From Acidobacteriaceae bacterium (GTDB lineage Bacteria; Acidobacteriota; Terriglobia; Terriglobales; Acidobacteriaceae), in NCBI GenBank assembly GCA_903642265.1, contig CAHJWN010000007.1, positions 1-64,000 of the forward strand: a stretch of 64,000 nucleotides of DNA, given 5' to 3'. The notes beneath the pieces were generated by a model. It saw only the letters and a list, made by a program, of their open reading frames with translations, was not told where the DNA came from and did no database searches. Below are positions 31,154-47,496 of the stretch, piece after piece (within the stretch, counting starts at the first letter, position 1; every line of letters starts with the position of its first letter). Position numbers and translations under genes: made by a program.

Positions 31154-31188
31154 CTGGAGGTACCTGGACACTCAGTCAAACGACGTTG

Positions 31189-32325
31189 CTAATCAACCAG
31201 GACAGCCTTTGTCAGATTGCGCGGATTATCCACATCGATGCCATTGTTGATGGACATGAAGTATGAGAATAACTGGAGCGGGATGACTTCGAAGAGAGGA
31301 AGTAGTGCTTCCGGAGCTTCTTCGACAAAGATGACGTGGGTGGCAAGTTCCGCAACGGCGGAATCGCCTGCGTTTGAGATGGCAAGAATGTTTGCCCTTT
31401 GGCCGCGCATGTCGCGCATCAGCTGCAGGATTTTTTCATATCGGAGAACTGAATCCGGATCAGAGTGGTCAACGGTCGCAATCATCACGAGCGGCGTTGC
31501 TTCGCTCACAAGAGCGTTCGGGCCATGCTTCAGCTCGCCGCTCGGATAACCTTCCGCATGAAGATAGGCTGATTCTTTCAGCTTTAGTGCACCCTCGCGG
31601 GCGATAGGGTTGTGAACACCCCGGCCGAGGAATAAGAAGTTCTTGATGGCGCGATACTCCCCGGCTATGTTTCGGACGTTGGTCTCCCAGCTTGCGAGCT
31701 GCGCTTGTATCTTTGCGGGTACATTGGAGAGTTCAACGAGGCGCTGCTTCAGTTGGTCTGGAGTCTGCTTGCCCTCCACTTCGGCTCCAAGCAACGCCAG
31801 CAGGTAGAGGTTCAGCAACTGGGCGGTAAAGCTTTTCGTTGCGGGAACGGCTCGCTCCCTGCCCGCCTCGGTTGGAAACGAGACCGTAGCTTCTCGCGCC
31901 ATGCTTGAGGTCGAAACGTTTGTTATGGCCAGCGTCGGATGGCCTGCGGCGGTAGCTTTGCGCAGGGCCGCGAGCGTGTCGGCAGTCTCCCCGGATTGTG
32001 ATATCAGCATAACTCCGCCGCTGCGACGAGCTTTTCCGGAGCTGTAGGAGTACTCGCTGGCATATTCGACGTCGACAGAGATGCTACTCAGATCCTCAAT
32101 CGTGAGTTCGGCAACTAGCCCGGCATGACGGCTGGAGCCGCTTGCCGCGATCAGGATGTGGCCATCGACACGTCGAAGCCATTCACGGATCGGTCCGCAG
32201 ATTTCGTCGCGAAAACTACCTGCTGCAACGTACCTTGCCAACGTTGTGGCTAAAGTGGCTGGCTGTTCAAAGATCTCGCGCAGCATCCAGTGCGCGTAGG
32301 GTGATGGACTTTGGACCTCGGGCAT
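31189..32325 (-). CDS. GlmS-like SIS protein lacking glutaminase: probable glucosamine-6-phosphate deaminase
   Basis: 378 residues comprising two SIS domains, as in the isomerase half of GlmS; the N-terminal glutamine amidotransferase domain is absent. Motifs: AASGSSRHAG, SQSGETADTLAAL, ATKSFTAQ, the catalytic-type LKLKESAYLHAEGYPSGELKHGP and a C-terminal NLTKAV. Without glutaminase the expected reaction is amino-sugar phosphate to fructose-6-phosphate plus ammonia, or an aldose-ketose isomerisation (AgaS type). It is first in the run with the kinase and fucosidase and is divergent from the DeoR regulator, its likely controller. Confidence 0.88.
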   Translation of the reverse strand: MPEVQSPSPYAHWMLREIFEQPATLATTLARYVAAGSFRDEICGPIREWLRRVDGHILIAASGSSRHAGLVAELTIEDLSSISVDVEYASEYSYSSGKARRSGGVMLISQSGETADTLAALRKATAAGHPTLAITNVSTSSMAREATVSFPTEAGRERAVPATKSFTAQLLNLYLLALLGAEVEGKQTPDQLKQRLVELSNVPAKIQAQLASWETNVRNIAGEYRAIKNFLFLGRGVHNPIAREGALKLKESAYLHAEGYPSGELKHGPNALVSEATPLVMIATVDHSDPDSVLRYEKILQLMRDMRGQRANILAISNAGDSAVAELATHVIFVEEAPEALLPLFEVIPLQLFSYFMSINNGIDVDNPRNLTKAVLVD

Positions 32326-32469: not shown

Positions 32470-33255
32470 GTGTCAAAAAAGATCGATATTCGCGGCGATC
32501 GAATCATGCGAGCACTACTAAGAGCCGGCGACATCTCCGTTCGGCAGCTGGTGGAGCAAGTCGGGGTTTCTGCGCCGAGCATCCGCCGGGATCTTGCGAG
32601 ATTAGAGAAACGCGGCCTGGTTCTGCGGACGCACGGCGGAGCGACACTGGTTGAGCACTTGTTGTACGAGCCTTTTAGACACGACACGTCGTTCCAGGCT
32701 CGTGAGTTGCGATCGGCCGACGAGAAGAGGCGAATAGGCCTCGCAGCGAGTGAACTAATCGCTGAAAAGGAGACCGTCGGCCTGACTGCGGGTACAACAA
32801 CAACGCAGATCGGCCGATCCCTTCGCCACCGGCATGGCATTTCTGTCGTCACAAACGCGTTGAACATCGGCATGGAGCTCTGTAACCAGCCGGCAATCAA
32901 GACCACATTGACTGGCGGTTCACTTGCGTGGGCCTGGACTTTCGCCCTTGCCGGGCAGCCAGCGCTGAATACCTTAAAAGATGTCTATCTGGACAAGGCG
33001 TTCATCAGCGTCACCGGCTTTGATATCGAACGCGGCCTTACCACGCTTGAGGCGGAAGAGGCTACGGTCTCGCTCGCGATGCTGCGCCAGGCCCGCGAGG
33101 TTATCGTGGTTGCAGATTCGAGCAAGATCGGGCAGGTAAGCCCAGCGTTGATCTGCCCGCTTTCGGCGGTGCATGTTCTGGTGACAGACCACGCCATCCC
33201 GGAAGACGTGTACCAGGTGCTGACGGCACGCGGGATCAAAGTTATCCGGGCCTAA
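32470..33255 (+). CDS. DeoR/GlpR-family transcription regulator (AgaR-like)
   Basis: 261 residues. N-terminal winged helix (about 5-60: ISVRQLVEQVGVSAPSIRRDLARLEKRGLVLRTHGG, a classic DeoR signature in two pieces) and a sugar-phosphate sensor domain with GLTAGTTTTQIGR, TNALNIG and the late VVADSSKIG. It starts with GTG at 32470. It probably binds the 144-base divergent gap (32326-32469) to repress the deaminase/kinase/fucosidase run until a sugar phosphate appears. Its end overlaps the formamidase gene stop by four bases. Confidence 0.92.
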   Translation: MSKKIDIRGDRIMRALLRAGDISVRQLVEQVGVSAPSIRRDLARLEKRGLVLRTHGGATLVEHLLYEPFRHDTSFQARELRSADEKRRIGLAASELIAEKETVGLTAGTTTTQIGRSLRHRHGISVVTNALNIGMELCNQPAIKTTLTGGSLAWAWTFALAGQPALNTLKDVYLDKAFISVTGFDIERGLTTLEAEEATVSLAMLRQAREVIVVADSSKIGQVSPALICPLSAVHVLVTDHAIPEDVYQVLTARGIKVIRA

Positions 33256-34199
33256 TCGACAATCGAGCTGAAAAGTTGGCGAGCGGGCAGGATGTGTTTA
33301 GGGATCGAGGCGGCTACTGTGATCATGGGCCGGTTCACCACCTGAGCGAGACGGAGGTCCATCGCAACGCTGCATAGCAGGTAAGCCTCGAGTGGGCTGA
33401 AGCCCCACCGCGAAGCAAGTAGATCTATCATCCGCGAAGTAGCAGCGCGAGCAGCGTCCAGCGCATCAGCGGCAGACTCGACGACGCTCCACAGCCCCTG
33501 TGCTGCGGTTGCGGGTGGCGGCGCATCTACGATGGGTGCCGAAAGAGGCTGGTCCTTGTGAAGGTGGAACCTGAGCGTCACATCGGCAGGGCACTCAATA
33601 CCATTGATGCAAACCTCACCATCACCTTGAGCGGCATGGGCGTCCCCGCAGGAAAAGAGCGCTCCCGGATTGAAGATTGGAAGGTAAAGCGTCGCACCGG
33701 CTGAAAGGTCGCGTACGTCCATGTTTCCCCCGAAGTGGCCTGGCGGACGCGTTCGAAAAGCCCCAGCTTCAGCAGGAGCAACACCCATCACCCCGCAGAA
33801 AGGCCGTAGCGGGACAATGGCAGGCGCAAGCGACTTTGACACGTTCTGATCCAGCTTCCAATGGAAGAGGCTGGCTTCCGTAAAGCGGTATTCCAAGAAA
33901 CCCAGTCCAGGAATAGTGCTGGTCCAGCCCCACCCCCTGTGACTTACTTCGAGGATCTCTACCTGCAGAACGTCACCGGGCCTGGCTCCCTCAACGAGTA
34001 CAGGGCCAGTCAACGCGTGTATGCGGTCGCGATCGATCGCCAGGTACTCCGCGAGCGTAGACGAGGAGGTCAGCTGATTGCCTGTCGCGTCATGGCAGCT
34101 GAAATGGACGGTATCACCGGGGGCGATAACCAGGCGCGGCTCAATGTCCCGAGACCACAATGAATGGGTTGGATCTGCCTCGAGCACATGGGTAGGCAT
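33252..34199 (-). CDS. Acetamidase/formamidase family protein
   Basis: 315 residues from the ATG at 34199, five bases past the RidA stop; a TTG at 34223 is possible but lacks a ribosome site. Family landmarks: GARPGDVLQVEILEV, PFCGVMGVAP, HFGGNMDVRDL and GDAHAAQGDGEVC, where the metal/active-site Asp and His lie. Relatives hydrolyse formamide or acetamide to ammonia. With RidA it forms a two-gene minus-strand unit diverging from the 13-gene operon, so it could remove formamide or a similar amide made there. Confidence 0.9.
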   Translation of the reverse strand: MPTHVLEADPTHSLWSRDIEPRLVIAPGDTVHFSCHDATGNQLTSSSTLAEYLAIDRDRIHALTGPVLVEGARPGDVLQVEILEVSHRGWGWTSTIPGLGFLEYRFTEASLFHWKLDQNVSKSLAPAIVPLRPFCGVMGVAPAEAGAFRTRPPGHFGGNMDVRDLSAGATLYLPIFNPGALFSCGDAHAAQGDGEVCINGIECPADVTLRFHLHKDQPLSAPIVDAPPPATAAQGLWSVVESAADALDAARAATSRMIDLLASRWGFSPLEAYLLCSVAMDLRLAQVVNRPMITVAASIPKHILPARQLFSSIVD

Positions 34200-34203
34200 G
34201 TCC

Positions 34204-34656
34204 TTATCGGCCCTCGATCTCAACGATCATCTGCAGTTCCACCAGTGCATTGCGCGGCAGGGAACTCACACAGATTGCAGCGCGAACGTGACGGCCTACC
34301 TCTCCGAAGATTTGCACCAGCAGATCAGAAGCGCCGTTGACCACCTTAGGAGCATCGGCGAAACCGGGTGGTGCGGCAACATACCCGTTTACGCTCAGGA
34401 CGCTTTTTACAACATCAAGTGAGCCAAGGTGCTGCTTGAGAACTGCGAGCTGCGTCAGTGCGCAACGCTGGGCGGCCAGGTAAGCGTCATCGAGGTTAGT
34501 GAATGGCGCGGTGATCACACCTTTCTCGTTAGAGGAGATCACTCCAGCTAGATAGACAAGGTTGCTACTCGTCTTTGCGGGAAGGTAGTTGCCGCCAGGC
34601 GCAGGTAGAACGGGCAGCGTGTGGCCAGCTGCAGCCAGGGTCTCTTCATAGCTCAT
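34204..34656 (-). CDS. RidA/YjgF family enamine/imine deaminase
   Basis: 150 residues starting at MSYEETLAAAGH, the usual N-terminus of this subgroup (an upstream GTG at 34674 adds six residues). It has the core ANLVYLAGVISSN-like segment and the C-terminal VRAAICVSSLPRNALVELQMIVE, with the conserved Arg of RidA proteins. These trimeric enzymes hydrolyse reactive enamines and imines; RutC, in uracil breakdown, belongs to the same superfamily. It diverges from the cytochrome-led operon by 73 bases. Confidence 0.9.
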   Translation of the reverse strand: MSYEETLAAAGHTLPVLPAPGGNYLPAKTSSNLVYLAGVISSNEKGVITAPFTNLDDAYLAAQRCALTQLAVLKQHLGSLDVVKSVLSVNGYVAAPPGFADAPKVVNGASDLLVQIFGEVGRHVRAAICVSSLPRNALVELQMIVEIEGR

Positions 34657-34729
34657 GTTGCGGTACTGTATCACGGCAAACTGGTGTGTTTCGCTGGCGC
34701 GGAGGGCAGCTTCAGGGTAGGCTTCATGA

Positions 34730-35605
34730 ATGCTGCGTCACATAGGGCTTCTCACAGCATTTGCCGGTCTGCTGCTTGCGGGCCAAAAGCCACAGCATGC
34801 GCCAATGCATGCGCATCGCGAAGCGCCCAATGATCTTGAGGTCTCAGGCTTACTTGATTCGGGACTGCCTGGCCAGTCTCAATTTGTTTCACGTGAGGCA
34901 ATCGCTCGCATGCCGCAGATCACCATGACCATGACCAGGACAGCAGATTTTCCTACGCTGCCGCAATCCGGTGTATCCGTACGCGGGGTCTATCTTGATA
35001 CGCTCGTCCGGAGCCTTGCCCTAAGAACCGGCGGCCTGGCGATCGAGGCCATATGCGCGGACGGCTATACGGCGACCTACTCGTCAGAGTATGTCAAGCA
35101 GCATCATCCCGTGTTTCTCCTTGAAGTCGACGGCCTAAACCCGCATGAGTGGGCGATCAAAGCAGGGCAATATGACGCCGGACCGTATCTGATTGAATAT
35201 CGGCGTTTTGTGCCATCATTTCGCGTTCTCTCGGATCGTGACCGGCCACTCGAACCTACTGGCATAGTCAAGTTGCACATTGATACACAACGGCATGTCT
35301 TTGCAGGCATCCAAATCCGTTCCGCTGGTCGTCACGAGAGGCGCGCGATTCAGGGTTACATGATTGCAAAACAGAACTGCTTCCGATGCCACAACGCAGG
35401 AGAACACGGAGGCACCAAGGCCAATGTGAGTTGGTCGAGGATCGGAAGCATTGCTAGGAAGCGACCGGACTACTTCGCAGATTGGGTGCACGATCCGCAA
35501 GCAGTGAATCCCAAAGCCGCTATGCCTTCGAATCTTGATTATGATGCTGTGACGCTATCGGCTTTACAGCATTACTTCGCAATGTTTGCCAAGGAGAGCG
35601 AGTGA
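34730..35605 (+). CDS. Exported c-type cytochrome with N-terminal molybdopterin-oxidoreductase-like domain
   Basis: 291 residues. A signal peptide (1 to about 18) leads into a domain (about 35-185) whose pattern (FVSREAIARMPQITMT, VSVRGVYLDTLVRSLALR, AICADGYTATYSSEYV, FLLEVDGLNP) resembles the sulfite-oxidase/YedY-like fold in a shortened form; I cannot assign a molybdenum ligand. The C-terminal part binds haem through C217, C220 and H221 (CFRCH), with M265 in AAMPSN as likely distal ligand. It should pass electrons in the periplasm. It is the first gene of the operon, overlapping the DUF2165 gene by four bases. Confidence 0.82.
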   Translation: MLRHIGLLTAFAGLLLAGQKPQHAPMHAHREAPNDLEVSGLLDSGLPGQSQFVSREAIARMPQITMTMTRTADFPTLPQSGVSVRGVYLDTLVRSLALRTGGLAIEAICADGYTATYSSEYVKQHHPVFLLEVDGLNPHEWAIKAGQYDAGPYLIEYRRFVPSFRVLSDRDRPLEPTGIVKLHIDTQRHVFAGIQIRSAGRHERRAIQGYMIAKQNCFRCHNAGEHGGTKANVSWSRIGSIARKRPDYFADWVHDPQAVNPKAAMPSNLDYDAVTLSALQHYFAMFAKESE

Positions 35606-36099
35606 CTGTCATCCGCATATCGAAGTGTCTGTTGATGCTGTCGGTCGCCTTCTTCTGCACCCTTGTTGTTTTCAACAACCTTACTGACTACGACTCCAAC
35701 TTTCAGTTTGTTCGCCATGTGCTGCAGATGGACTCGACCTTCCCTGGCAATAGAGGGATGTGGCGCGCCATTAACTCGCTGGTGGTTCATCACGTCGCGT
35801 ACGGCCTCGTCATTCTATGGGAAGCACTGACAGCAGCCACGGCCTGGTGGGGCGGGCTCCGATTGTTCCGGCACCGGCGCGGGAGTCCTCAGGCCTTTGC
35901 GCGGGCAAAGGCGCCGAGTATTGCTGCGCTCACAATGGGCATAAGTCTATGGTTTGTCGGCTTTATTGCCGTAGGTGGCGAGTGGTACCTGATGTGGCAA
36001 TCCAAGACGTGGAACGGACAGGAAGCAGCGTTCCGTCTTGTGGTCGTGCTCGGAATCGTGCTGCTTTACGTCGTTTCGCCCGAGAGTCAACATGAGTAA
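35602..36099 (+). CDS. DUF2165-like small membrane protein
   Basis: 165 residues with four hydrophobic segments (about 8-28, 62-86, 105-130, 142-160). The first loop has NNLTDYDSNFQFVRHVL, DSTFPGN and MWRAI, which I recognise as the DUF2165 pattern. GTG start inside the GTGA overlap with the cytochrome gene, preceded by AAGGAGAG. Function unknown; the coupling suggests it anchors or assists the cytochrome. Confidence 0.85.
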   Translation: MTVIRISKCLLMLSVAFFCTLVVFNNLTDYDSNFQFVRHVLQMDSTFPGNRGMWRAINSLVVHHVAYGLVILWEALTAATAWWGGLRLFRHRRGSPQAFARAKAPSIAALTMGISLWFVGFIAVGGEWYLMWQSKTWNGQEAAFRLVVVLGIVLLYVVSPESQHE

Positions 36100-37402
36100 A
36101 CCTACCGTCTTGCAGAAGCTTCAAAACCAGTTGAAAACGGGAGTAATTACACCGATTGGAGTAATGCTCGAAGCAAATCGGCGCGCTGATGCGAGCGCAT
36201 CCCTGAAGCACACAGACTGCGGAACGTACATCCGGCGAGATGCTGGTGCCGTGCTCCAATATGCGCAGTCATTGCCAAACACTTTTCCTGATCCAGATAA
36301 GCGCCCGCTTCTTTACGGCGTGCCCGTTTCAGTAAAAGACTGCTTCGATCTTGTGGGAACCGTTACAGGATGTGGATCGAAGTTTTATGCGAGCTTCAAC
36401 CAACCTGCTACGGAGAACGCATGGATCGTCGAACGCCTGCTCGCCGCCGGTGCGGTCATCATGGGCAAGACGCATCTCCACCAGCTTGCTTACGGAATCA
36501 CTGGTGAAAACGAAGACTATGGAAATCCATTGCAGCCGCGAGACCGCTCGCTGCTCACCGGCGGTTCTTCCAGCGGGGCTGTGGCAAGCATCCAAGAGGG
36601 TTCCGCTTTGGTGGCCGTCGGGACCGACACTGGCGGCTCGGTGCGTGTGCCTGCTGCGCTCTGCGGACTTGCCGGATATCGCGCTTCGCACGGCCTGTTT
36701 GCAGAAGAAATCTGCTGGAAGGGAGGTGCGCATCTGGCCAGGTCTTTCGACACCATCGGCCTCCTGTTTCAGGATCTACGTGATGGACCGATGCTAGGGC
36801 TGGCGGTCTTCGGACTGCAGCCCGCAGCTGTACCTCAACAACCCCGGATCGGGTTCGTCGGCACCGAATTCCTTGAGGACTGTGACCCTGATGTTCTAGC
36901 TGCCTATACAGCGTGGAGGCGCAGGCTCGAAGACCGGGGCGCCACGCTCGCTTACTTTGACACGAGCTTCTGGGGCGAGAGTAAGGAGATCTTTATGGCC
37001 ATCCAGGCAAGTGAAGCTGCCGCGTCGCATAGAGGTCACTTCGAGCGCTTCGAGAAAGCCATCGCAGAACGCCTCGCCTGGGGCGAGTCCATTACCCCAG
37101 AACAACTCAACGTGTTGCACCAGCGGCATAAGGCATTCTGCGGAAAGATGGATGGATTGTTCGATCAGTATCAATTCCTCGTGCTCCCTTGCGCTCCTGT
37201 GAGCCGTCTTGTGGCGGGTGAAGATCAAAGCAGCGCCCGCGCGAGGATCCTTCGGTACACTGCACCTATAAGCATGGCAGGCCTGCCGACCGTCACGCTC
37301 CCGGGCGAAATGATCGGCAACTTCTTTGGAACCGGAGTTCAACTTGTAGCCAAGAAGGGCAACGACGCAGAGCTGCTGGCGTTTGCCGCTGCCATGGTTT
37401 GA
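36092..37402 (+). CDS. Amidase signature family hydrolase (allophanate-hydrolase/AtzF-like)
   Basis: 436 residues from the ATG that overlaps the DUF2165 stop by eight bases. The Ser-cisSer-Lys triad is visible: K in VSVKDCFDL, the glycine/serine loop TGGSSSGAVA and GTDTGGSVRVPAA with the nucleophilic serine. It hydrolyses a C-N amide bond in the cytoplasm; the substrate is not determined. The set GVPVSVKD and LAGYRASHG is close to allophanate-type amidases. Confidence 0.9.
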   Translation: MSKPTVLQKLQNQLKTGVITPIGVMLEANRRADASASLKHTDCGTYIRRDAGAVLQYAQSLPNTFPDPDKRPLLYGVPVSVKDCFDLVGTVTGCGSKFYASFNQPATENAWIVERLLAAGAVIMGKTHLHQLAYGITGENEDYGNPLQPRDRSLLTGGSSSGAVASIQEGSALVAVGTDTGGSVRVPAALCGLAGYRASHGLFAEEICWKGGAHLARSFDTIGLLFQDLRDGPMLGLAVFGLQPAAVPQQPRIGFVGTEFLEDCDPDVLAAYTAWRRRLEDRGATLAYFDTSFWGESKEIFMAIQASEAAASHRGHFERFEKAIAERLAWGESITPEQLNVLHQRHKAFCGKMDGLFDQYQFLVLPCAPVSRLVAGEDQSSARARILRYTAPISMAGLPTVTLPGEMIGNFFGTGVQLVAKKGNDAELLAFAAAMV

Positions 37403-37464
37403 ATCGCCCCTTCGCTGCTATGCTTCAGGAACACTTGAATTGTCTATCGGAGATCCCTATCGCG

Positions 37465-38442
37465 ATGCGGAAGGTTTTCAGACCAGTTGCCGTCATCTGT
37501 TTCGGAGCACTTTCTTTACTGCCTGGCTGCCGCAAACAGGCTTCTAGAAACGGTCTCTTCCCCGTCACACTGCAGACGGATTGGTACCCGCAGCCGGAGC
37601 ACGGCGGCTTCTACGAAGCACTTTTGAAGGGATACTACAAGCAGGAAGGTCTCGATGTGACTATCGCCCCGGGTGGACCCATGATCGTTGGCGACCAGCA
37701 GGTGGCAAGCGGCGCAGCCACCTTTGCGATGGACTCTTCAGATCAGGTGCTGGTGTCTGTCTCGCATGGCTTACCGTTGATAGCAGTTGCAGCCACGCTG
37801 CAGCGTGACCCCCAGGGAGTCATGGTTCACAAGGATTCGCCGGTGAAGACATTTGCAGATCTCAACGGTCACGCTGTAGCTGTAAGGCCTGGCTCGATCT
37901 GGTTCCAGTATTTGGTGAAGAAGTACAAGCTCGACGATGTTCAAGAGATTCCTGCAACGTATAGCGTCGCCAACTTCCTTGCTGACCCAAACTATATCCA
38001 GCAGGCATTCGTGACCTCCGAGCCATACTTCGCGAAGAAGGGGGGTGCCGAGGTGCGAATGCTGCAGGTAAGCGAGACCGGCTACGTTCCGTATCGTGTC
38101 TACGTCACCTCATCGAGCTTTGTAAGAGAGCATCCGGACATCGTTGCGAAGTTCGTGCGCGCTTCAACAAAAGGGTGGCGCGACTACATTGCCGACCCGA
38201 GCCTTGCCGATGCCGAAATCAACAAGCTGAACCCTGCAATGAACGTCGACCAGATGAACTTCAGCGCGTTGACACTGAAAGATATGAAGTTCGAAACAGG
38301 TGATGGCCCAGATGGCGACCAGCTTGGACGTTTTACACCGGAGCGATGGGCAACGATGTATCAGCAGCTCATCGACCTGAAGGTGATTACCACACCCATC
38401 GACCCAAAGACTGCCTATACATTGAAATATCTGCCGCGATAG
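37465..38442 (+). CDS. ABC transporter substrate-binding lipoprotein (NMT1/THI5/SsuA-like)
   Basis: 325 residues. Lipoprotein signal ending in LLPGC, cysteine at residue 22 from the ATG at 37465. The mature protein starts TLQTDWYPQPEHGGFYEALLKGYYKQEGLDV, the THI5/NMT1-type opening with a tryptophan in the pocket, then GDQQVASGAATFAM. Relatives bind pyrimidines (HMP, formylaminopyrimidine), riboflavin or sulfonates. The partner ATPase and permease lie 4.5 kb downstream in the same operon. Confidence 0.9.
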   Translation: MRKVFRPVAVICFGALSLLPGCRKQASRNGLFPVTLQTDWYPQPEHGGFYEALLKGYYKQEGLDVTIAPGGPMIVGDQQVASGAATFAMDSSDQVLVSVSHGLPLIAVAATLQRDPQGVMVHKDSPVKTFADLNGHAVAVRPGSIWFQYLVKKYKLDDVQEIPATYSVANFLADPNYIQQAFVTSEPYFAKKGGAEVRMLQVSETGYVPYRVYVTSSSFVREHPDIVAKFVRASTKGWRDYIADPSLADAEINKLNPAMNVDQMNFSALTLKDMKFETGDGPDGDQLGRFTPERWATMYQQLIDLKVITTPIDPKTAYTLKYLPR

Positions 38443-38453
38443 CGAGGACGGAA

Positions 38454-38999
38454 TTGCCGAAAAAAAAATCAGATCCGCAGCGAGCAAAGGATAAGGCGTT
38501 CATGGCCGGGCTGGTTGCATTTACTGCTCAAAGCATGGACACCGAGACACCCGTGCCCTTTGGAGCGCTTATCGTCGAGACATCGACGGGCAAGCCGCTC
38601 ATGCAGGCGCTCAACGCTGTTGCGGCAGAGAACGACCCGAGCTCGCATGCGGAGTTGCGCACGGTTCGGCTTGCGACCAGGAAACTCAGGTCCCGTTCAC
38701 TGAAGGGCCATACGATGTACTCAACCTGCGAACCCTGTCCGATGTGCATGGCTAATGCACTTTGGGCCGGGTTAGATCGCGTGGTCTACGGCGCAACCAT
38801 CAAGGATGCCAACAGACACTGCAACCAGATACGCATTCCTGCAAAGGAAGTTGCCCGACGCAGTGACATGCCTTGTGAGATTGTCGGTAAAATCCTACGC
38901 AAGCAGTGCTACGCGCTCTTCACTCATCCCAATATGTTGAAGGTGTTTGCAAGCTGGAGTTCAAGCAATCGCAAGCTCGACAAAACAGGTACGGCATGA
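38454..38999 (+). CDS. Cytidine/guanine-deaminase-fold nucleobase deaminase
   Basis: 181 residues from TTG at 38454, which has GAGGA five bases before it; the longer open frame is discarded. Zinc-site motifs: SSHAELRTVR (His and catalytic Glu) and CEPCPMCMANALWAG (two Cys). This fold removes an amino group from a pyrimidine, purine or similar ring. It overlaps the FAD oxidoreductase by four bases (ATGA). Closest known class: guanine/cytosine-type deaminases; substrate unproven. Confidence 0.88.
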   Translation: MPKKKSDPQRAKDKAFMAGLVAFTAQSMDTETPVPFGALIVETSTGKPLMQALNAVAAENDPSSHAELRTVRLATRKLRSRSLKGHTMYSTCEPCPMCMANALWAGLDRVVYGATIKDANRHCNQIRIPAKEVARRSDMPCEIVGKILRKQCYALFTHPNMLKVFASWSSSNRKLDKTGTA

Positions 39000-40357
39000 C
39001 TGCAGCCGATATTGCCGCTCTTACTGAACGTATTGCTGATCCAGCACGCGTCATCACCAATCCCCAGATTGTGCAGCGCCTGTCCCATGACTTTTATTGG
39101 TATTCGCCTATTCTTAAGCAGCAGCTTGATGACAAAACGGCAGAGCTTGCGGTGCAGGTAGTCAATACGGAAGAGATAGTCCACGTACTTACCTATTGCA
39201 ATGCGCATGAAATTTCGGTGACTGTTCGCGGAGCAGGAACAGGGAACTACGGTCAGGCAGTTCCGCTGGCCGGTGGCGTTGTACTCGATATGGTCGCGAT
39301 GGACAAGATCGTCGAAATTACCAGCGACGGCGTTGCAATCTGCGAAGCGGGCGTTCGTCTTGGAGCGCTTGAAGTTGCAGCCCGCGAGTCTGGCTGGGAG
39401 CTGCGCTGCTATCCCAGCACAGTGGTCAAGGCCGCAGTGGGAGGCTTCCTGGGCGGCGGCTCGGGAGGCATTGGCTCCGTCGCACACGGCGGTCTGCGCG
39501 ACTTCGGGACCGTTCGCGCGATTGAGGTGGTCACTATGGAAGACCCACCTCGCATCGTTTTACATGAAGGGCAAGCAGTGCATGACGTGCTGCATGCCTG
39601 GGGAACGAACGGTATCATCACGAAGGTCTGGCTTGCACTCACGCCCGCAGTCGATTGGGCACAGTGTGTTGTCGCATTTGACACCTTTGAGGCAGCATTC
39701 ACGTTCAGCGAAGCTGTTGCCGTAAGCGATGCGTGGACGAAGCGGCTGGTCACGACCTTCGAATGGCCAATCCCATCGTGCTTTGCGCCAATTGCGCTGT
39801 ACACCCGGAAAGACAAAGCGCTCGTTTTCTTCATGATTGCGGCTCCGCAACTCGAGAGCTTGGCTGCTGCTGCCGTGAAGGCAGGCGGAGAGGTAACGCT
39901 GGCTGATGCATACACAGGATTGAAGACGGCGCCGCTGCTCTCTGACTACACGTGGAACCACACTACGCTCTGGGCCATCAAGCAGGACGGAGCGTTTACT
40001 TATCTTCAATGCGGCTTCGACCCGCAGAACGCACGAGCACAATTCGCAGCATTGAAGGCAAAATTTGGCAACGAGATACTCTTCCACATCGAATGGATGA
40101 AACGTGGCGATAACACCGTTGTTCCAGGTTCCATTCCCCTGGTGCGGTTTACGACAGAAGCACGCTTGAACGAGATGATCGACTTTTGCCGTTCGATCGG
40201 CGTAAGCGTAGCAAACCCGCACGTCAATAACGTTGAAGGCGGCGGTCGATATCGCGAAGATAACGTCCAGTTACTTACGAAGTACAAATATGACCCCAAG
40301 GGCCTCTTGAACCCGGGCAAGATGGTCACGTTTCAACGCATGGACGCTGCAGTCTGA
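38996..40357 (+). CDS. FAD-binding oxidoreductase (PCMH/VAO type)
   Basis: 453 residues from the ATG at 38996. The FAD domain reads EISVTVRGAGTGNYGQAVPL, then CYPSTVVKAAVGGFLGGGSGGIGSVAHGG and LRDFGTVRAIEVVTME; the C-terminus ends YDPKGLLNPGKM as in glycolate-oxidase-like enzymes. Asn replaces the His that binds FAD covalently in many relatives, so the flavin is probably not covalent. It may oxidise the imported compound and pass electrons to the operon's cytochrome, which is inferred. Confidence 0.9.
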   Translation: MTAADIAALTERIADPARVITNPQIVQRLSHDFYWYSPILKQQLDDKTAELAVQVVNTEEIVHVLTYCNAHEISVTVRGAGTGNYGQAVPLAGGVVLDMVAMDKIVEITSDGVAICEAGVRLGALEVAARESGWELRCYPSTVVKAAVGGFLGGGSGGIGSVAHGGLRDFGTVRAIEVVTMEDPPRIVLHEGQAVHDVLHAWGTNGIITKVWLALTPAVDWAQCVVAFDTFEAAFTFSEAVAVSDAWTKRLVTTFEWPIPSCFAPIALYTRKDKALVFFMIAAPQLESLAAAAVKAGGEVTLADAYTGLKTAPLLSDYTWNHTTLWAIKQDGAFTYLQCGFDPQNARAQFAALKAKFGNEILFHIEWMKRGDNTVVPGSIPLVRFTTEARLNEMIDFCRSIGVSVANPHVNNVEGGGRYREDNVQLLTKYKYDPKGLLNPGKMVTFQRMDAAV

Positions 40358-40384
40358 TCTAAGTTCTTCGTTCAAAGGAATGCA

Positions 40385-41173
40385 ATGCATACGTGGATCC
40401 CTGATGAGCGGCAGCTTGCTTATCTGAACTGGAAGCAAGTCGAAGCCCTGCACAAAGAAAAGACGCTGCTGGTCCTTCCGACCGCAGCAATTGAGCAGCA
40501 TGGACATCACTTGCCGTTGGCGACTGACACGCTTATCAACAACCTTTTGCTTGGCAGGGCTCTCGGCAAGCTTCCCAAAGATGCGCCGATATATGCTTTG
40601 CCGCCAATCTGCTATGGAAAGAGCAACGAACACACGGGCTTTCCAGGGACCATGTCAATCTCGGCAGCGACGTACATGGCTGTGGTCCGCGATATAGGCG
40701 CAAGTGTTGCAGCTTCAGGATTCAGGAAGCTGGTGCTTTACAACTCGCACGGCGGCAACAGCGCTTTAAACGATGTGATGGCGCGTGACCTTCGCGCGGA
40801 GTTCGGACTGCGTACCTTTCAGATGGGTGCTTCAGGCGGAGCAAAGTTCGAAGACATCGCCGCACAGGAGCGGGCATACGGCTTCCATGCCGGGGAGTAT
40901 GAAACATCGCTGCTGCTAGCCGCCATTCCTCAGTTCGTCGATACGTCGGCATATACGATCAACTACATTGCTGACGTCACCAGGCCGGAGGTCTTAAAGC
41001 CGGAGTTCGCCCCGGCAACATTTGCCTGGCTCACGCGAGACATAGCACCCAGCGGCGTCATGGGTGATCCAAATCCTTCAACTGCTGAGAAGGGCGAGCG
41101 CTGGATCGAAGAAGCCGCCACGTGCGCTGCAGCAGCACTTGTCGCCATGCTGGCCTACGAGAACCACTCTTAG
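40385..41173 (+). CDS. Creatininase-family amidohydrolase
   Basis: 262 residues. Metal ligands of the family are present: E and H in AIEQHGHHLPLATD, then LYNSHGGNSALND and the glutamate of HAGEYETS. The family opens lactam or cyclic amidine rings (creatinine) or removes formyl groups from ring compounds. Starts after TTCAAAGGAATGC, a good ribosome site, and ends one base before the next gene. Confidence 0.92.
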   Translation: MHTWIPDERQLAYLNWKQVEALHKEKTLLVLPTAAIEQHGHHLPLATDTLINNLLLGRALGKLPKDAPIYALPPICYGKSNEHTGFPGTMSISAATYMAVVRDIGASVAASGFRKLVLYNSHGGNSALNDVMARDLRAEFGLRTFQMGASGGAKFEDIAAQERAYGFHAGEYETSLLLAAIPQFVDTSAYTINYIADVTRPEVLKPEFAPATFAWLTRDIAPSGVMGDPNPSTAEKGERWIEEAATCAAAALVAMLAYENHS

Positions 41174-41174
41174 C

Positions 41175-42896
41175 ATGAGTGCGAGCGGCACGGTTGCGAG
41201 AACGATCGATTGCGGCGGCAGAGTCCTCCTGCGGCGCGGACTACGCTGCACAATGTCCGATGGCGTGGTCCTCGTTTCAGACCATTACGGTCCGGAGAGC
41301 GGTGGCAAGCTGCCCACTCTCTTGATGCGGCAACCCTATGGGAGCGACATAGCTTCTACGGTCGTCTACGCGCATCCTGCGTGGTTTGCGCGGCATGGCT
41401 ACAACGTCGTGATCCAGGATGTGCGTGGCCGCGGTCAATCCGAGGGCGAGTTCTATCCATTTCTGCATGAGGAGAAAGACGGCGCCGAGACGATCGCCTG
41501 GCTTCGTACCCTGCCTGAGTGCAACGGCAAGGTGGGCATGTATGGCTTCTCGTATCAAGGAATGACGCAGCTTCTTGCCGCCGTTTCCAGACCTGAAGGC
41601 CTGATGTGCATTGCGCCAGCGATGGCAGCACATGATCTTTATCGGGGTTGGTTCTACAACAATGGCGCGCTGCGACTTGCCTCATCGCTCGGTTGGGGTT
41701 TGCAGATGTTGAAAGAAGACGCACGCCGGTGCGGGCTGGGTCAGGCGAGCCATTTGTTAGAGCGGGCGTGGGCTGATTTGCCGGCGCAGTTTCTACAAAC
41801 ACCGTACGGTGCACATCCAGCAATAAAGTCCCAGGGCTTGCCCTCCTACGTCACGGACTGGCTCGAGCATGATGCTCCGGAAGAGTTCTGGTCGCGGATG
41901 GATTTGAGTGAGCGCGTCTCAGACATTAACATCCCTGCATTGCACGTCTCTGGCTGGTTTGACACCTACGTGAAAGGCACGATCGACGGCTTTCGCGCGC
42001 TAACGGCGAAGGCAGGTTCGGAGTTTGCGCGAGCGAATCAATATCTTGTGGCAGGTCCATGGGTGCATATTCCCTGGGGATCGCGGATAGGCGCGAAAGA
42101 TTTTGGCCCTGCTGCAGAGCTCGACACGGACGCCCTGCTGCTCCGGTGGTTCAATCACTGGCTGAAAGACTCTGCAGAATTTGCACACGAGCCAAGAGTG
42201 CAGCACTTTGCAATGAACGCAAATAAGTGGTGCGCAGCGGAGACGTGGCCTGAAGCGGGCACAGTCAATCTTTTCCTGCACAGTGCAGGCAGAGCCAACT
42301 CTTCGAGGGGTGATGGTCTTCTGTCCGCAACTGCTGCCAGCGACAACCAGCCCGCGGACATCTTTGTCGTCGATCCCGAGGTCCCGGTCGTCGCCCCTGG
42401 AGGCATCAGTTCAGCAAGCGGCTGCTTCAATCAGGCGGTGATGGAACAAGGAAACAATCTGCTGGTATACACGGGCCCTGTGATTGAGCATTCGCTGCAT
42501 GTCTTTGGTGCTCCGCTAGTAAGCCTGTGGGTAGCCACTTCGACGTTTTATGCCGATTTAGTTGTGAAGCTGGTGTGTGTGCGGGGCAATGGGGATGCGG
42601 ACTTCGTGACGATTGGGATTGCACGAAGCTCGTTTCTTTTTGCTGGGAATTACGTTGCCGATTCGACACGACAGTGGACGTTTGAGATGGAGCCAACTTC
42701 CTGGGTGTTCGCCAGGGGCGAGCGTGTGCGAATAGAGATTGCGGGTGGCAGCTTCCCGCTATTTGACAAGAATCCGGGAACAGCCGTAAAGCCACGTGAG
42801 GCGAGTTCGTGGAACTGGACTCGGTCGACGCACCTCGTCTATCACGATTTGGAACGACCTTCAGTGATTCACCTTCCGGTTGCTGCGCTAGACTGA
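41175..42896 (+). CDS. CocE/NonD family hydrolase
   Basis: 573 residues from the ATG at 41175. X-Pro-dipeptidyl/cocaine-esterase-like: DVRGRGQSEG, nucleophile S126 in YGFSYQGM, acid/base region VSGWFDTYVKGT, AGPWVHIPWG, and a C-terminal beta domain (about 340-570). There is no signal peptide, so it is cytoplasmic. It cleaves ester or amide bonds of unknown substrates. Spaced one base from the creatininase gene. Confidence 0.9.
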   Translation: MSASGTVARTIDCGGRVLLRRGLRCTMSDGVVLVSDHYGPESGGKLPTLLMRQPYGSDIASTVVYAHPAWFARHGYNVVIQDVRGRGQSEGEFYPFLHEEKDGAETIAWLRTLPECNGKVGMYGFSYQGMTQLLAAVSRPEGLMCIAPAMAAHDLYRGWFYNNGALRLASSLGWGLQMLKEDARRCGLGQASHLLERAWADLPAQFLQTPYGAHPAIKSQGLPSYVTDWLEHDAPEEFWSRMDLSERVSDINIPALHVSGWFDTYVKGTIDGFRALTAKAGSEFARANQYLVAGPWVHIPWGSRIGAKDFGPAAELDTDALLLRWFNHWLKDSAEFAHEPRVQHFAMNANKWCAAETWPEAGTVNLFLHSAGRANSSRGDGLLSATAASDNQPADIFVVDPEVPVVAPGGISSASGCFNQAVMEQGNNLLVYTGPVIEHSLHVFGAPLVSLWVATSTFYADLVVKLVCVRGNGDADFVTIGIARSSFLFAGNYVADSTRQWTFEMEPTSWVFARGERVRIEIAGGSFPLFDKNPGTAVKPREASSWNWTRSTHLVYHDLERPSVIHLPVAALD

Positions 42897-42974
42897 AATC
42901 CTTGACCTTCCACTAAGACGCACGCTATAGCACCCTGCAAACTCGATCAGTAGCTCCCGCAAAAGACGCAATCT

Positions 42975-43775
42975 ATGGCCAACGAGGGTGTGACGCAACC
43001 CGTGACAAGAACCGTTACAGAACCCGCAATTGCTCTCAGGGCTGCGACGAAGCGCTATGGTACTGGCCCGGCAGTTCTTGAAGCGGTTGATCTGAGCGTA
43101 GGGAAACGTGAGTTCGTTAGCATTATCGGACCTTCCGGGTGCGGCAAATCGACACTGCTGAAGCTGGTTGCCGGGCTCAGTCCGCTAAGCGCAGGGACAA
43201 TCGCGATTGATGGCATGACCCCGTCGAACGCCCGCGAGATCGTGTCGTTCATCTTTCAGGATGCTACGCTGCTGCCCTGGCGAACAGTGCGTGAAAACAT
43301 TGTCCTTGGCCTTGAACTCGAAGGCATGGCCAAGGCGCGCCGCCACGAGAAGGTCGACAGGGTTCTCTCCCTTGTAGGGCTTGACAATGTCGCGGATTCC
43401 TTTCCAAGGCAGCTCTCCGGCGGGATGAAGATGCGTGTCTCGATTGCGCGTGCGCTTGCGACACGGCCCCAGGTCCTGTTGCTCGACGAGCCGTTTGCAG
43501 CACTGGATGAGATGACCCGCGACCGCCTGAATGAAGACCTGCTGCGGCTGCGCGACGAGCATCAATGGACCGCTCTGTTTGTAACGCACTCCGTCGCAGA
43601 AGCAGTCTTTCTCTCAACCAGGATCATCGTCTTGGCTCCGCACCCTGGACGCCTGGCTCGAGACATCCCGATAGATCTTCCTTTCCCGCGCACCGAGGCA
43701 ACGCGAAGCACAGCGGCATTTGAGCAAAGTGTCATCGATGTCTCACGGGCTCTGCGGGGGGTGAGTCTTCAATGA
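42975..43775 (+). CDS. ABC transporter ATP-binding protein (NitT/TauT/SsuB-like)
   Basis: 266 residues. Walker A GPSGCGKST, Q-loop FIFQDATLLPW, signature LSGGMKMRVSIARAL, Walker B LLLDEPFAALD and H-loop VTHSVAEAV. It overlaps the permease gene by four bases and pairs with the lipoprotein encoded upstream to import a small solute. Confidence 0.94.
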   Translation: MANEGVTQPVTRTVTEPAIALRAATKRYGTGPAVLEAVDLSVGKREFVSIIGPSGCGKSTLLKLVAGLSPLSAGTIAIDGMTPSNAREIVSFIFQDATLLPWRTVRENIVLGLELEGMAKARRHEKVDRVLSLVGLDNVADSFPRQLSGGMKMRVSIARALATRPQVLLLDEPFAALDEMTRDRLNEDLLRLRDEHQWTALFVTHSVAEAVFLSTRIIVLAPHPGRLARDIPIDLPFPRTEATRSTAAFEQSVIDVSRALRGVSLQ

Positions 43776-44566
43776 AGACGCTCATCATCAATATCGCTAG
43801 CGCCCTCGCAATCTTCTGCGGATTGCTGATGACATGGCAGGCAATCATCTGGTTGTTCAGCATCCAGCCCTATCTTTTACCTACGCCTGTGCGAGTGGCC
43901 CGCGCGGTGGTAGCTAATTTTCCGTCCCTCATCACTTCTCTGGCGATCACGACAGCTTCAGCCGCCGGCGGCCTGCTCTCTGCTCTGGTCGTCGGGATCG
44001 TGGTGGCGCTGCTCTTCGCACAGTCTCCATGGTCGCGCCGCATGTTCTACCCATACACCGTGCTCTTGCAGACCGTGCCCATCGTCGCGGTGGCACCCCT
44101 TATCCTGCTATGGGTGGGAACCGGGATCGGCTCTGTGATGCTGGTCGCGTTCATCATTTGCCTTGCACCGATCATTGCAAACACCACGCAGGGATTGGTC
44201 AGCGTGGACCGCAATCTTGTAGATCTTTTCCTCATGCACAACGCTTCGCGATCACAGGTGCTTCTGAAATTGAGACTTCCTCACGCGCTGCCATCGATCT
44301 TCACTGGCGTACGAATCTCTGCAGGAATCGCAGTGATTGGAGCGATTACTGGAGAACTCTTTGGTGGCGGCACCATCCGCGTAGGCGTAGGCGGAATTGG
44401 CTATGCCATCCAGTATGCGAACTCGCAATTACAAACCGACTATCTGTTCGCATTGGTGCTCGCGGCGTCGGCTCTAGGATTTTTCTTTTTCTTTATAACG
44501 ATGTTTCTGGAATGGTATTTCCTGCACCAGTGGCATGAGTCAGCACGAAGCGGGGAGGCGGAGTAG
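43772..44566 (+). CDS. ABC transporter permease (NitT/TauT/SsuC-like)
   Basis: 264 residues, about six membrane helices, with the ATPase-contact EAA-like loop near LVDLFLMHNASRSQVLLKLRLPHALPS (residues about 150-176, written here in part). The following gene starts two bases after its stop. Confidence 0.93.
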   Translation: MKTLIINIASALAIFCGLLMTWQAIIWLFSIQPYLLPTPVRVARAVVANFPSLITSLAITTASAAGGLLSALVVGIVVALLFAQSPWSRRMFYPYTVLLQTVPIVAVAPLILLWVGTGIGSVMLVAFIICLAPIIANTTQGLVSVDRNLVDLFLMHNASRSQVLLKLRLPHALPSIFTGVRISAGIAVIGAITGELFGGGTIRVGVGGIGYAIQYANSQLQTDYLFALVLAASALGFFFFFITMFLEWYFLHQWHESARSGEAE

Positions 44567-44568
44567 CT

Positions 44569-45390
44569 ATGTTGCGTTTAGAGACACAGAGAGGCTGGTG
44601 GCTTGTGACGCACCCAGACCATGCCCGCTTGGCTGGCACAATTGCGGCACATTGGGGCAATGATCTGTTCGCTGCCCCAGAACCGCGTGCGCATGTCTTG
44701 CTCGGTATCAATGTTCATGACGATGGCTGGGCCGTTCGTGATGCGAGTCCTTCCATTACAAAGCAAGGCAAGCCAGCTGCTTTCTCCGTGGAGTTGGTAG
44801 GCAGGTATTCGGCTTTTGAAGAGATCGACCTTGAGGACTATCTAAACGTTCGCGAACGCGCAGTTGCGGAGATTGCCGCTGAGGATGCGTATGCAGCCCT
44901 GCTGGTCTCCAAGCACACCTATAATCTGCTCACTGCGAGAGCCGATCGCTCGACAATTGAACCAGACCAGCTTCCGTCACTTGATAACTTTCTCGAGCGA
45001 CAGTTGCAGCTGCAGGCACGCTTGTTCGCCGCCATCCGAACCGCGCCCTCATTTTCGCAGCAAGACGTCACGGACGAGAAGATCGATGAGAACTTTCGAT
45101 TGCTGCAGGCGACAGACAACATGTCGCTATTAGCCTGTGTGGACTACAGTGCGCCCGCCTCGCTGCTGCATCCCTTGAAGCTGCGGAATGGTGCAACATC
45201 CGAGGTAAAGGTCACGCCACTCGGACAGAGGTCTTTCAAGCTTGAGCCATATCCGCTGTCTCAGGATCAAGTAGAAATCGATTTTTCGGCTCGGCATGTG
45301 GCCGCAAAGTCATTCGGATCGACCACTGAATTCAGACAGGCGTTCCATGCTGCTCCAATTGAAACCCTCACTCTCACGCTCTCAACCTGA
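44569..45390 (+). CDS. DUF3891 protein, possible HD-like metal hydrolase
   Basis: 273 residues; I recognise the DUF3891 layout. Histidines and acids are spaced as in HD-superfamily enzymes: H18 in PDHARLAG, H50-D51 in NVHDDGW, H116 in SKHTYNLL and a late D in QATDNMSLLAC. The HD link is my inference. No signal or membrane segment. It starts two bases after the permease stop, so it belongs to the same transcript. Confidence 0.82.
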   Translation: MLRLETQRGWWLVTHPDHARLAGTIAAHWGNDLFAAPEPRAHVLLGINVHDDGWAVRDASPSITKQGKPAAFSVELVGRYSAFEEIDLEDYLNVRERAVAEIAAEDAYAALLVSKHTYNLLTARADRSTIEPDQLPSLDNFLERQLQLQARLFAAIRTAPSFSQQDVTDEKIDENFRLLQATDNMSLLACVDYSAPASLLHPLKLRNGATSEVKVTPLGQRSFKLEPYPLSQDQVEIDFSARHVAAKSFGSTTEFRQAFHAAPIETLTLTLST

Positions 45391-45417
45391 GTTTCGAGTA
45401 GGCTGAAGCTTGGTCTA

Positions 45418-46302
45418 ATGGGCCCAGGAGCGTTGCACGTGGTAAAGATTGTGGAGTGTCCGCGCCTTGCTTGGCAAGGCCTGGCGAAGCCGATGCCAGC
45501 GGAGATCAAGGCAGATTACCTACGCACACTAGTCGCAGCAGGGTTCAAGCAGATCGACGCTGTAAGCTTTGTAGGCCGATCGATCATGCCGCAGATGGCA
45601 GATTCTGAGTTGGTGCTTGAGTACCTCGACCCACCCGACGACGTCGAGATCATCGGCTTGGTGTGGGATGTCAAGGGTGCCGAACGTGCAATCAAGTGCG
45701 GCTCTGTTCAAACACTCGCGTTCCAGTACGCGTTGTCGCCCAGGTTCCTCGAGAAAGATTTTGATCACACCCTGGAAGAGTCGCTGGACATGCTCGAAGA
45801 GGTGGGTACCCTGGCGTACAAAGCGGGCTTGGACGTGGTTACCTACATAGCCACAGCGTTCGGAAATCCATTCGGCGATCCGTGGGACATCGAAGAGGTA
45901 GTCAACGCGGTCGACCTCTTGGTTGAAAGCGGAGTCCGCAACATTGTGCTGACGGACTCCCTTGGTCAGGCATCTCCAAAGCTGATCGCTGACGTCTTTG
46001 CCGACGTAAGCGCAGTGCACGATGAACTGGAAATAGGCTTGCACCTTCGATCTGAACCGAGCGCCTCTGATGCGAAGGTGAGGGCTGCATATGAAGCTGG
46101 ATGCAGGCGCTTTCACTCCGTGCTCGGGGGGTTTGGCGTTGAGGCAGTCGGCGAGGCAGGCATGGTCCCAAATCTAGCGACTGAAGCTCTCATTGCGACG
46201 CTAAGTGGGCTTGGAGCCGAGCTCGAGCCGATGCGACCCGTTGAGGAAATTGCCAGAGCGGCATCGGAGATCGCCCGCAAGTATGGAGCGAGAATCCAGT
46301 GA
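45418..46302 (+). CDS. HMG-CoA-lyase-like enzyme (DRE-TIM metallolyase)
   Basis: 294 residues, TIM barrel of the HMGL-like group: VKIVECPRLAWQGL, TDSLGQASPKLIAD, GLHLRSEPSAS (metal-type His) and GCRRFHSVLGGFGV. The usual DP/GG ligands are partly altered. Relatives cleave hydroxymethylglutaryl-CoA or similar hydroxyacyl-CoA compounds. It overlaps the thioesterase gene by four bases, so a CoA thioester is the likely substrate class. Confidence 0.85.
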   Translation: MGPGALHVVKIVECPRLAWQGLAKPMPAEIKADYLRTLVAAGFKQIDAVSFVGRSIMPQMADSELVLEYLDPPDDVEIIGLVWDVKGAERAIKCGSVQTLAFQYALSPRFLEKDFDHTLEESLDMLEEVGTLAYKAGLDVVTYIATAFGNPFGDPWDIEEVVNAVDLLVESGVRNIVLTDSLGQASPKLIADVFADVSAVHDELEIGLHLRSEPSASDAKVRAAYEAGCRRFHSVLGGFGVEAVGEAGMVPNLATEALIATLSGLGAELEPMRPVEEIARAASEIARKYGARIQ

Positions 46303-46739
46303 TTCCCGGCATGCTGAAGGACGGAATAAAACACTTTGGCGAAGCAGCTGTGAGGGTCCGCTACCAGGAGACCGATCAGATGGGTGTTGTTTACCACGCC
46401 AACTACCTGGTTTGGTTTGAGGTCGGTCGCGTCGAGCTCATGCGACAGATGGGTCTGTCTTATAAAGACATGGAGCGCGAGGAACAGTGCGGCATCGCGG
46501 TCGTCGAGGCAAGTGCCCGCTACCGTGCCCCCGCTAAGTACGACGATGAATTGATCGTCAGGACGTGGCTTACGGCTGTGCGCGGACCGGTCATCAAGTT
46601 TGCATACGCAATTGTGCGCGTGGCCGACCAGGTGGTATTGTGCGAGGGACATACGGTGCATGTTGCAGTCAACGCCGAGATGAAGAAATGCTCCTTGCCG
46701 AGGAGATACGCGGAACGTTTCGCCGAGTACCTTACTTAG
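46299..46739 (+). CDS. Hotdog-fold acyl-CoA thioesterase (YbgC/4-hydroxybenzoyl-CoA thioesterase type)
   Basis: 146 residues. Motif YQETDQMGVVYHANYLVWFEVGR, with the catalytic Asp, followed by GIAVVEASARY. GTG start within the GTGA overlap; an ATG at 46311 is the alternative. It releases free acids from CoA thioesters in the cytoplasm. Follows the lyase directly. Confidence 0.9.
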   Translation: MIPGMLKDGIKHFGEAAVRVRYQETDQMGVVYHANYLVWFEVGRVELMRQMGLSYKDMEREEQCGIAVVEASARYRAPAKYDDELIVRTWLTAVRGPVIKFAYAIVRVADQVVLCEGHTVHVAVNAEMKKCSLPRRYAERFAEYLT

Positions 46740-46755
46740 TCGTAAAAGGAGAATT

Positions 46756-47496
46756 ATGAGTGAGCAAAAGAAGGTTGCATTAATTACCGGAGCGAACAAA
46801 GGACTCGGACTTGAGACTGCGCGGCAGTTGGCGGCTCAGGGGATCATCGTGCTGCTGGGTGCGCGGAATGCTGAACGTGGCGAAGCTGCGGCAGCACCTC
46901 TGAAGACCGAAGGTCTCGACGTGCGGGCCGTAAAGCTCGATGTAGACGACCGCGCAGATCACGCTGCAGTCGCTGCCTTGATCGAGAAAGACTTTGGCAA
47001 GCTTGACATACTCATTAACAATGCAGGCGTCATGCTCGATGGGGAGTTGGGCGCGAATACTACGCTGAAAGTCTCCGAAGAAAACGTGCGGAAGACCTTC
47101 GATACAAACTTCTTTGCAGTCGTAGCATTGACCAAAACCCTGCTGCCACTGCTGCGCAAGAGCAATTCTGGCCGCATCGTGAACCTGTCAAGCATCCTCG
47201 GCTCGCTGACACTTCACGCGACCAAAGGCTCTCCGATCTATGATGGCAAGGTGTTCGCGTATGACACATCGAAGGTGGCGCTGAATTCGTATACCGTTCA
47301 CCTTGCACACGCGTTGCAGGACACCAGGATCAAAGTCAATTCTGCCCACCCGGGTTGGGTGAAGACGGACATGGGCACTGACGCGGCTCCGATGAATGTT
47401 GTCGAAGGCTCGAAGACAGGCGTATGGCTGGCTACCCTGCCGGAGGATGGCCCGACTGGCGGCTTCTTCCACATGCAGGATCGTTTGCCCTGGTAG
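46756..47496 (+). CDS. Short-chain dehydrogenase/reductase
   Basis: 246 residues. NADP-binding TGANKGLGLETA with basic R38-type position (LLGARNAERG), NNAGVM, catalytic serine in NLSSILG and YDTSKVAL. Strong ribosome site AAAAGGAG. Probably the last gene of the operon; a hairpin lies downstream. It resembles carbonyl-reductase-type SDRs; substrate unknown. Confidence 0.9.
   Translation: MSEQKKVALITGANKGLGLETARQLAAQGIIVLLGARNAERGEAAAAPLKTEGLDVRAVKLDVDDRADHAAVAALIEKDFGKLDILINNAGVMLDGELGANTTLKVSEENVRKTFDTNFFAVVALTKTLLPLLRKSNSGRIVNLSSILGSLTLHATKGSPIYDGKVFAYDTSKVALNSYTVHLAHALQDTRIKVNSAHPGWVKTDMGTDAAPMNVVEGSKTGVWLATLPEDGPTGGFFHMQDRLPW

Follow-up and report, generated by a model that had tools for sequence, protein, structure and literature searches.

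Folate synthesis is textbook knowledge; to our knowledge few genes are known for the bacterial breakdown of folates, and breakage of the pterin ring is nearly blank. The known parts of pterin breakdown that we found amount to two pterin deaminases with known genes, as given in the excerpted text of PMC9513972, and one deposited flavin-oxygenase structure. According to the same excerpts, the cloned pterin deaminase of Variovorax sp. F1 deaminates folate and pteroate, and V. paradoxus carries conserved 'endoribonuclease' genes downstream of pterin-deaminase-type genes (PMC9513972). Since the Rid genes of the proteobacterial clusters described below carry the Pfam name Endoribonuclease L-PSP, we infer that this V. 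paradoxus neighbour is of the Rid type. The structure, PDB 6V42/6V43, was deposited under the title of a flavin oxygenase involved in folate catabolism; no paper naming 6V42 or 6V43 was found in the openly licensed literature, and substrate and mechanism are known from the title alone.

Clusters with a 6V42-type enzyme occur in Proteobacteria, in Rhizobium, Agrobacterium, Klebsiella, Pantoea and Roseateles and on other plasmids. With the locus analysed here, which lies in a 64,000-nt stretch of DNA (the window) of a soil-type acidobacterium, they share an orthologous FAD enzyme (38-44% identity to that of the window), a related creatininase (35-42%), a THI5-type ABC importer, a Rid-type protein (alike by family only) and a ring-amine deaminase, the last alike in kind, being an amidohydrolase in the proteobacterial clusters, unlike in the window. 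Many of them add a flavin reductase, a TauD/IPNS-type dioxygenase or a PDR reductase, whereas a Pfam scan recovered no such flavin reductase or dioxygenase in the window cluster. Conversely, the latter has CocE, amidase, DUF3891, FmdA and cytochrome genes, unlike its proteobacterial counterparts. The window RidA is by sequence of a different subfamily from the Rid proteins of those clusters, and the window RidA, DUF2165 and FmdA proteins gave no blastp match to the plasmid proteins at E <0.1. A sequence-only reading had called the cluster possibly undescribed, and among the papers listed in a search of openly licensed literature only, none appeared to describe it. Given the 6V42 title and proteobacterial clusters with similar partners, it rather varies on a type that is already known in part.

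Gene content of the locus

The gene run and its two satellite genes are listed in Table 1. The positions of the plus-strand genes given in the sequence-only reading stand, and so do its 13 junctions (4 overlap, 8 overlap, 62, 11, 4 overlap, 27, 1, 78, 4 overlap, 2, 27, 4 overlap and 16 nt), where the starts at 36092, 37465, 38454, 38996 and 41175 are used and not the longest open reading frames. These junctions however join 14 genes and not the thirteen counted. Likewise, the families it named are recovered by Pfam and NCBIfam, although its list of functions passes over the cytochrome-type protein, DUF2165 and DUF3891 (first, second and eleventh genes), and the FmdA_AmdA and YjgF_endoribonc (RidA) genes, assigned by Pfam, diverge from the run as it had stated.

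Table 1. Features of the gene run and its surroundings, in window coordinates.
Feature	Position	Strand	Basis
FmdA/AmdA-family amidase (formamidase-like), satellite module	33252..34199	-	PF03069 E 9.7e-58
Rid-family protein (imine/enamine deaminase-like), satellite module	34204..34656	-	PF14588 58.9 bits
Probably exported protein, C-terminal c-type cytochrome domain (CxxCH)	34730..35605	+	PF13442 weak, under cut-off
DUF2165 small membrane protein	35602..36099	+	PF09933 E 1.5e-63
Amidase-signature hydrolase	36092..37402	+	PF01425; PDB 2dc0 and biuret hydrolase 6c62
Substrate-binding lipoprotein, NMT1/THI5/ThiY type	37465..38442	+	PF09084; PDB 4nmy, THI5, ThiY
Zinc deaminase, guanine-deaminase type	38454..38999	+	PF00383; PDB 1wkq; start TTG 38454 assumed
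FAD enzyme, 6V42 folate-catabolism type	38996..40357	+	FAD_binding_4
Creatininase-family metal amidohydrolase, cluster subfamily	40385..41173	+	PF02633 E 1.5e-68; tree
CocE/NonD-type serine hydrolase	41175..42896	+	TIGR00976 387.9 bits, cut-off 66.3; S15/PepX_C; PDB cocaine esterase
ABC importer ATPase	42975..43775	+	PF00005 (ABC_tran)
ABC importer permease	43772..44566	+	PF00528 (BPD_transp_1)
DUF3891, possible metal enzyme of HD-domain type; final gene in the conserved cluster	44569..45390	+	
HMGL-like lyase, 4HBT thioesterase, SDR (adh_short); adjoining independent block, outside the cluster	45418..47496	+	

The FmdA/AmdA protein scores 123 bits against an FmdA equivalog cut-off of 500, and the creatininase falls below both the creatininase and the MftE equivalog cut-offs. 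In the cytochrome-domain protein C217, C220, H221 and M265 are invariant in 11 sequences, and it is possibly an electron acceptor. The DUF2165 Pfam family is also present in a cluster of Ruegeria TM1040, the two proteins not being alike (blastp E 0.12). Among the families compared, none emerges as a clear fold match to DUF3891. Scans of the run yielded 3 promoter-like sites (shuffle mean 5.7) and 7 terminator-like sites (shuffle mean 13.7) and are uninformative on whether it forms one transcript; no tRNA was detected in the 64,000-nt window.

Conservation and gene order in two phyla

The gene cluster is real and conserved, with a stable core membership across Acidobacteriota and Verrucomicrobiota. 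Among 61 genomes searched, orthologues of the FAD enzyme (66-77% identity) are present in eight, the window's own and 7 of 36 others in the genus, all remaining matches being at most 40% identical, nearly all partial stretches of other VAO-type enzymes. The same eight genomes hold the close creatininase orthologues (71-85%), matches of any kind extending to 26 genomes but at 39% or less beyond the eight, and DUF3891 (56-70%) is found in exactly these eight. Of 396 genomes sampled evenly over the phylum, 8 hold the FAD enzyme at E 1e-60, and the cluster is thus rare and accessory. All eleven cluster genes are present with FmdA and RidA in 6/7 relatives' loci, with blocks inverted or swapped; the binding protein of one (L026) runs past the edge of the stretch compared. 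At the seventh, L025 of genome G005, none of FmdA, RidA, cytochrome and DUF2165 was seen within 16 kb, and the locus ends before DUF3891, an orthologue of which is on a different contig.

We then considered a wider set from both phyla, the best 80 of 150 qualifying loci picked by the FAD enzyme, with partners counted by tblastn using defined probes. The two sets are not independent, having six genomes in common, and many of the 80 loci end at contig ends, making the partner counts lower bounds. Deaminase and creatininase each accompany the FAD enzyme in 78/80 of these best loci, followed by CocE (75), ATPase and binding protein (71 each), permease (69), DUF3891 (56), amidase (50), FmdA (34), DUF2165 (23), RidA (21) and cytochrome (10). 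The set deaminase-FAD enzyme-creatininase-CocE-ATPase-permease is complete in 68 of the best 80, and in all 68 it retains the same order and strand. Most of the genes of the run thus recur together in two phyla, placing it beyond chance. The sequence-only reading had named a break in order between transporter and enzymes as refuting it, and half of such a break is seen. Of the 67 loci, among the best 80 of 150, that have a binding-protein match above 35%, the gene diverges in 65 and stands in line in 2, but ATPase and permease are in line downstream of CocE in 68/68 complete loci. The stable two-phylum core represents a defined enzyme set for assay, and the cultured hosts of the cluster include Granulicella aggregans, Terracidiphilus gabretensis, Bryocella elongata and Silvibacterium bohemicum.

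Additional genes surround the cluster elsewhere. In 6/7 relatives FmdA is followed by an AtzH-like gene, which is present in 33 of the best 80 of 150 loci and has no match in the window. In the same 80, outer-membrane barrel proteins were detected in 24 loci with an acidobacterial probe (PF25183) and in 14 with a verrucomicrobial probe (TonB receptor), and Mo-hydroxylase subunits in seven. The labels of these neighbours come from Pfam for some probes, and for Pao subunits, PreT and the aldo-keto reductase from plasmid annotation or a look at the sequence. Collectively, they fit nitrogen-heterocycle scavenging, without settling which heterocycle.

A candidate route for pterin breakdown

That the cluster imports and breaks down some cyclic nitrogen compound, as previously proposed from the sequence, is still the best reading, with creatininase, deaminase, FAD enzyme and transporter travelling together. 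That proposal had only inferred the substrate; the title under which the nearest solved relative of the FAD enzyme was deposited narrows it, probably to a pterin. On balance, we lean towards an accessory nitrogen-scavenging cluster that would import pterin, free or as the pterin part of folates, and dismantle it.

The FAD enzyme is 42% identical to 6V42, which would leave room enough for substrate drift. In the FAD-enzyme tree, 36 rows comprising window-type, proteobacterial and 6V42 sequences are grouped (100/100) apart from six GlcD-like rows, and the window enzyme is orthologous to 6V42. Furthermore, a gene of the creatininase subfamily is found beside the FAD enzyme in 10/10 plasmid loci read, picked for spread over genera and not at random, and in 9/10 of them the binding protein is similar to that of the window (E 6e-11 or better). 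The creatininase tree places the window clade as sister to one of two plasmid groups (97/92), the deepest split from the paralogues being weak. The creatininase and Variovorax links run through the Klebsiella and Comamonadaceae groups, whose FAD enzymes are themselves only 41-44% identical to 6V42.

The deaminase has guanine deaminase 1wkq as its best PDB match (E 6.8e-15). Its HAE and PCxMC motifs and the guanine-deaminase-like N54 and D118 are conserved above 95% in an alignment of 76 sequences, from which rows with stops, X or less than 75% coverage were dropped. The conserved positions include the zinc and catalytic residues H65, E67, C95 and C98, and the residues aligned with a guanine-deaminase Asn and D114. 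With its zinc CDA fold, the window enzyme is not homologous to the known pterin deaminases of Variovorax and Agrobacterium (F1 PDA, Arad3529), which belong to the amidohydrolase superfamily; the reaction proposed for it is the same as theirs. The common target would be the 2-amino-4-oxopyrimidine half of guanine and pterin.

The analysis establishes which genes are present, their conservation and co-occurrence, and the subfamilies of the FAD enzyme and the creatininase; the substrate, the individual reactions and their order are envisaged as follows. Uptake of the heterocycle would fall to the THI5-type lipoprotein, ATPase and permease, the guanine-deaminase-type enzyme would remove the 2-amino group, converting pterin to lumazine, and the FAD enzyme would oxidize either the pyrazine ring or its side chain. 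The cyclic amide so formed may then be opened by the creatininase-type metal enzyme, and RidA, amidase and formamidase would clear imine and amide fragments, liberating ammonia. CocE, DUF3891, DUF2165 and the cytochrome are not assigned to a step of this proposed route. Assignment of the cluster would link DUF3891 to a process.

A more far-reaching version, which we regard as doubtful, is a complete and independently assembled route of pteridine mineralization in Acidobacteriota and Verrucomicrobiota. Here the CDA-fold zinc deaminase would replace the amidohydrolase pterin deaminase, DUF3891 would take over from the Fe/2-oxoglutarate or reductase-coupled oxygenases of the proteobacterial clusters as a diiron oxygenase of the HD-domain mixed-valence type, a type marked by an HD fold with H, HD, H and D as metal ligands, and a purine-like product would be passed to the adjoining urate and ureide genes of some genomes. 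An Alcaligenes route reportedly described by McNutt, from tetraoxypteridine via xanthine-8-carboxylate to purines, would explain such purine neighbours, but is not relied on here.

Other readings of the cluster

The strongest contender to the pterin reading, though an unlikely one, is that the substrate would be a purine or pyrimidine of an unusual kind, such as an oxidised or methylated base, which a guanine-deaminase-like enzyme would deaminate and which would undergo the same oxidation and ring opening. The window deaminase is nearest to guanine deaminase, THI5-type binding proteins bind pyrimidines according to the names of the structure matches, and purine or pyrimidine genes adjoin a minority of the best 80 of 150 loci: uricase, HIUH, OHCU decarboxylase and M20 genes in four (L037, L046, L048 and L052), and PreA/PreT-like genes with an amidohydrolase in three. 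Against this, the nearest structure of the FAD enzyme is assigned to folate catabolism, and in the window genome OHCU decarboxylase, HIUH, uricase and M20 matches stand separately, together on contig C2 (L121), so that no replacement is needed. The canonical urate-allantoin pathway resembles our reading of the cluster in scavenging nitrogen from a fused pyrimidine ring, but its signature enzymes are absent, Pfam detecting no uricase, HIU hydrolase or OHCU decarboxylase family among the window cluster proteins. The RutA luciferase-like monooxygenase and RutB isochorismatase-type hydrolase families of the Rut pathway were similarly absent from the 20 window proteins scanned.

A route for creatinine, hydantoins or lactams, suggested by the creatininase name and by the amidase in the same cluster, is very unlikely, as the enzyme reaches 91.1 bits against a cut-off of 235 for the creatininase equivalog TIGR04448, and no hydantoinase, creatinase or M20 carbamoylase families were found among the cluster proteins.

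Equally hard to sustain, and if anything slightly more so, is the view that all 14 genes form one pathway with an acyl-CoA tail of HMGL, 4HBT and SDR, as the sequence-only reading had it. The strand is uninterrupted, the gaps are short, and in L022 and L023, as in the window, the tail stands beside the cluster. However, it is apart from the cluster in the other 5/7 genus loci (of which L025 ends before DUF3891), and an HMGL match occurs in 1/80 of the best 80 of 150 loci, many ending at contig ends. Moreover, HMGL matches are present in 47/61 relatives' genomes, compared to 8/61 for the FAD enzyme, and in five stretches elsewhere HMGL has 4HBT within 1 kb in all five, SDR in four and cluster genes in none; in G028 contig C8 carries the HMGL block and contig C16 the cluster. 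Being free-standing elsewhere, the tail is an independent, adjoining block, the cluster ends at 45390, and an acyl-CoA step as part of the pathway finds no support in the distribution of HMGL and its separate loci.

Finally, a new urate route, with the FAD enzyme in place of uricase and creatininase in place of allantoinase, is hardly credible despite the purine genes neighbouring the cluster in a few loci, as uricase accompanies the FAD enzyme in 8/8 genus genomes (and is present in 19 of the 33 others, four of these 33 being unscreened for the FAD enzyme) and stands, with HIUH and OHCU decarboxylase (Pfam), directly beside the cluster in L048, which largely refutes the FAD enzyme as a urate-oxidase substitute. 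Rather, the pterin-type route favoured here and the urate route may meet downstream, neither replacing the other.

The gene beside FmdA

A gene of the AtzH-like type (PF11533) lies directly after FmdA in all six of the genus relatives whose loci bring FmdA into view (L022, L023, L024, L026, L027 and L028), as compared with positions 33252-34674 of the window. For this AtzH-like gene, no match was found in the window.

Neighbouring genes

The genes flanking or composing the compared clusters are collected below. Those upstream of the window's cluster perhaps represent an amino-sugar operon, without relation to the cluster.

Genes beside or within the probable pterin-type clusters
Locus	Coordinates	Strand	Genes	Placement
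Window	30239-32325	minus	BadF-type ATPase; SIS-domain	upstream of cluster
L048	774-7114		XDH FAD subunit-OHCU decarboxylase fusion, then HIU hydrolase, uricase, two M20 genes	directly adjoining cluster
L111 (Klebsiella plasmid)			PDR reductase, amidohydrolase, RidA, creatininase, ABC importer, FAD enzyme	6V42-type cluster

Copies and carriers of the FAD enzyme

The FAD enzyme occurs in two copies in one genome of the family (G229, contigs C9 and C1). Locus L032 (CAJCHN010000108.1) is titled Rhodanobacteraceae, a name that looks wrong; its match falls at the same place as in G006, a genome of the window's own acidobacterial genus. A cluster of the type named after the flavin oxygenase 6V42 is borne by the Klebsiella pneumoniae plasmid p2B30155 (L111), the source of the isolate being human blood.
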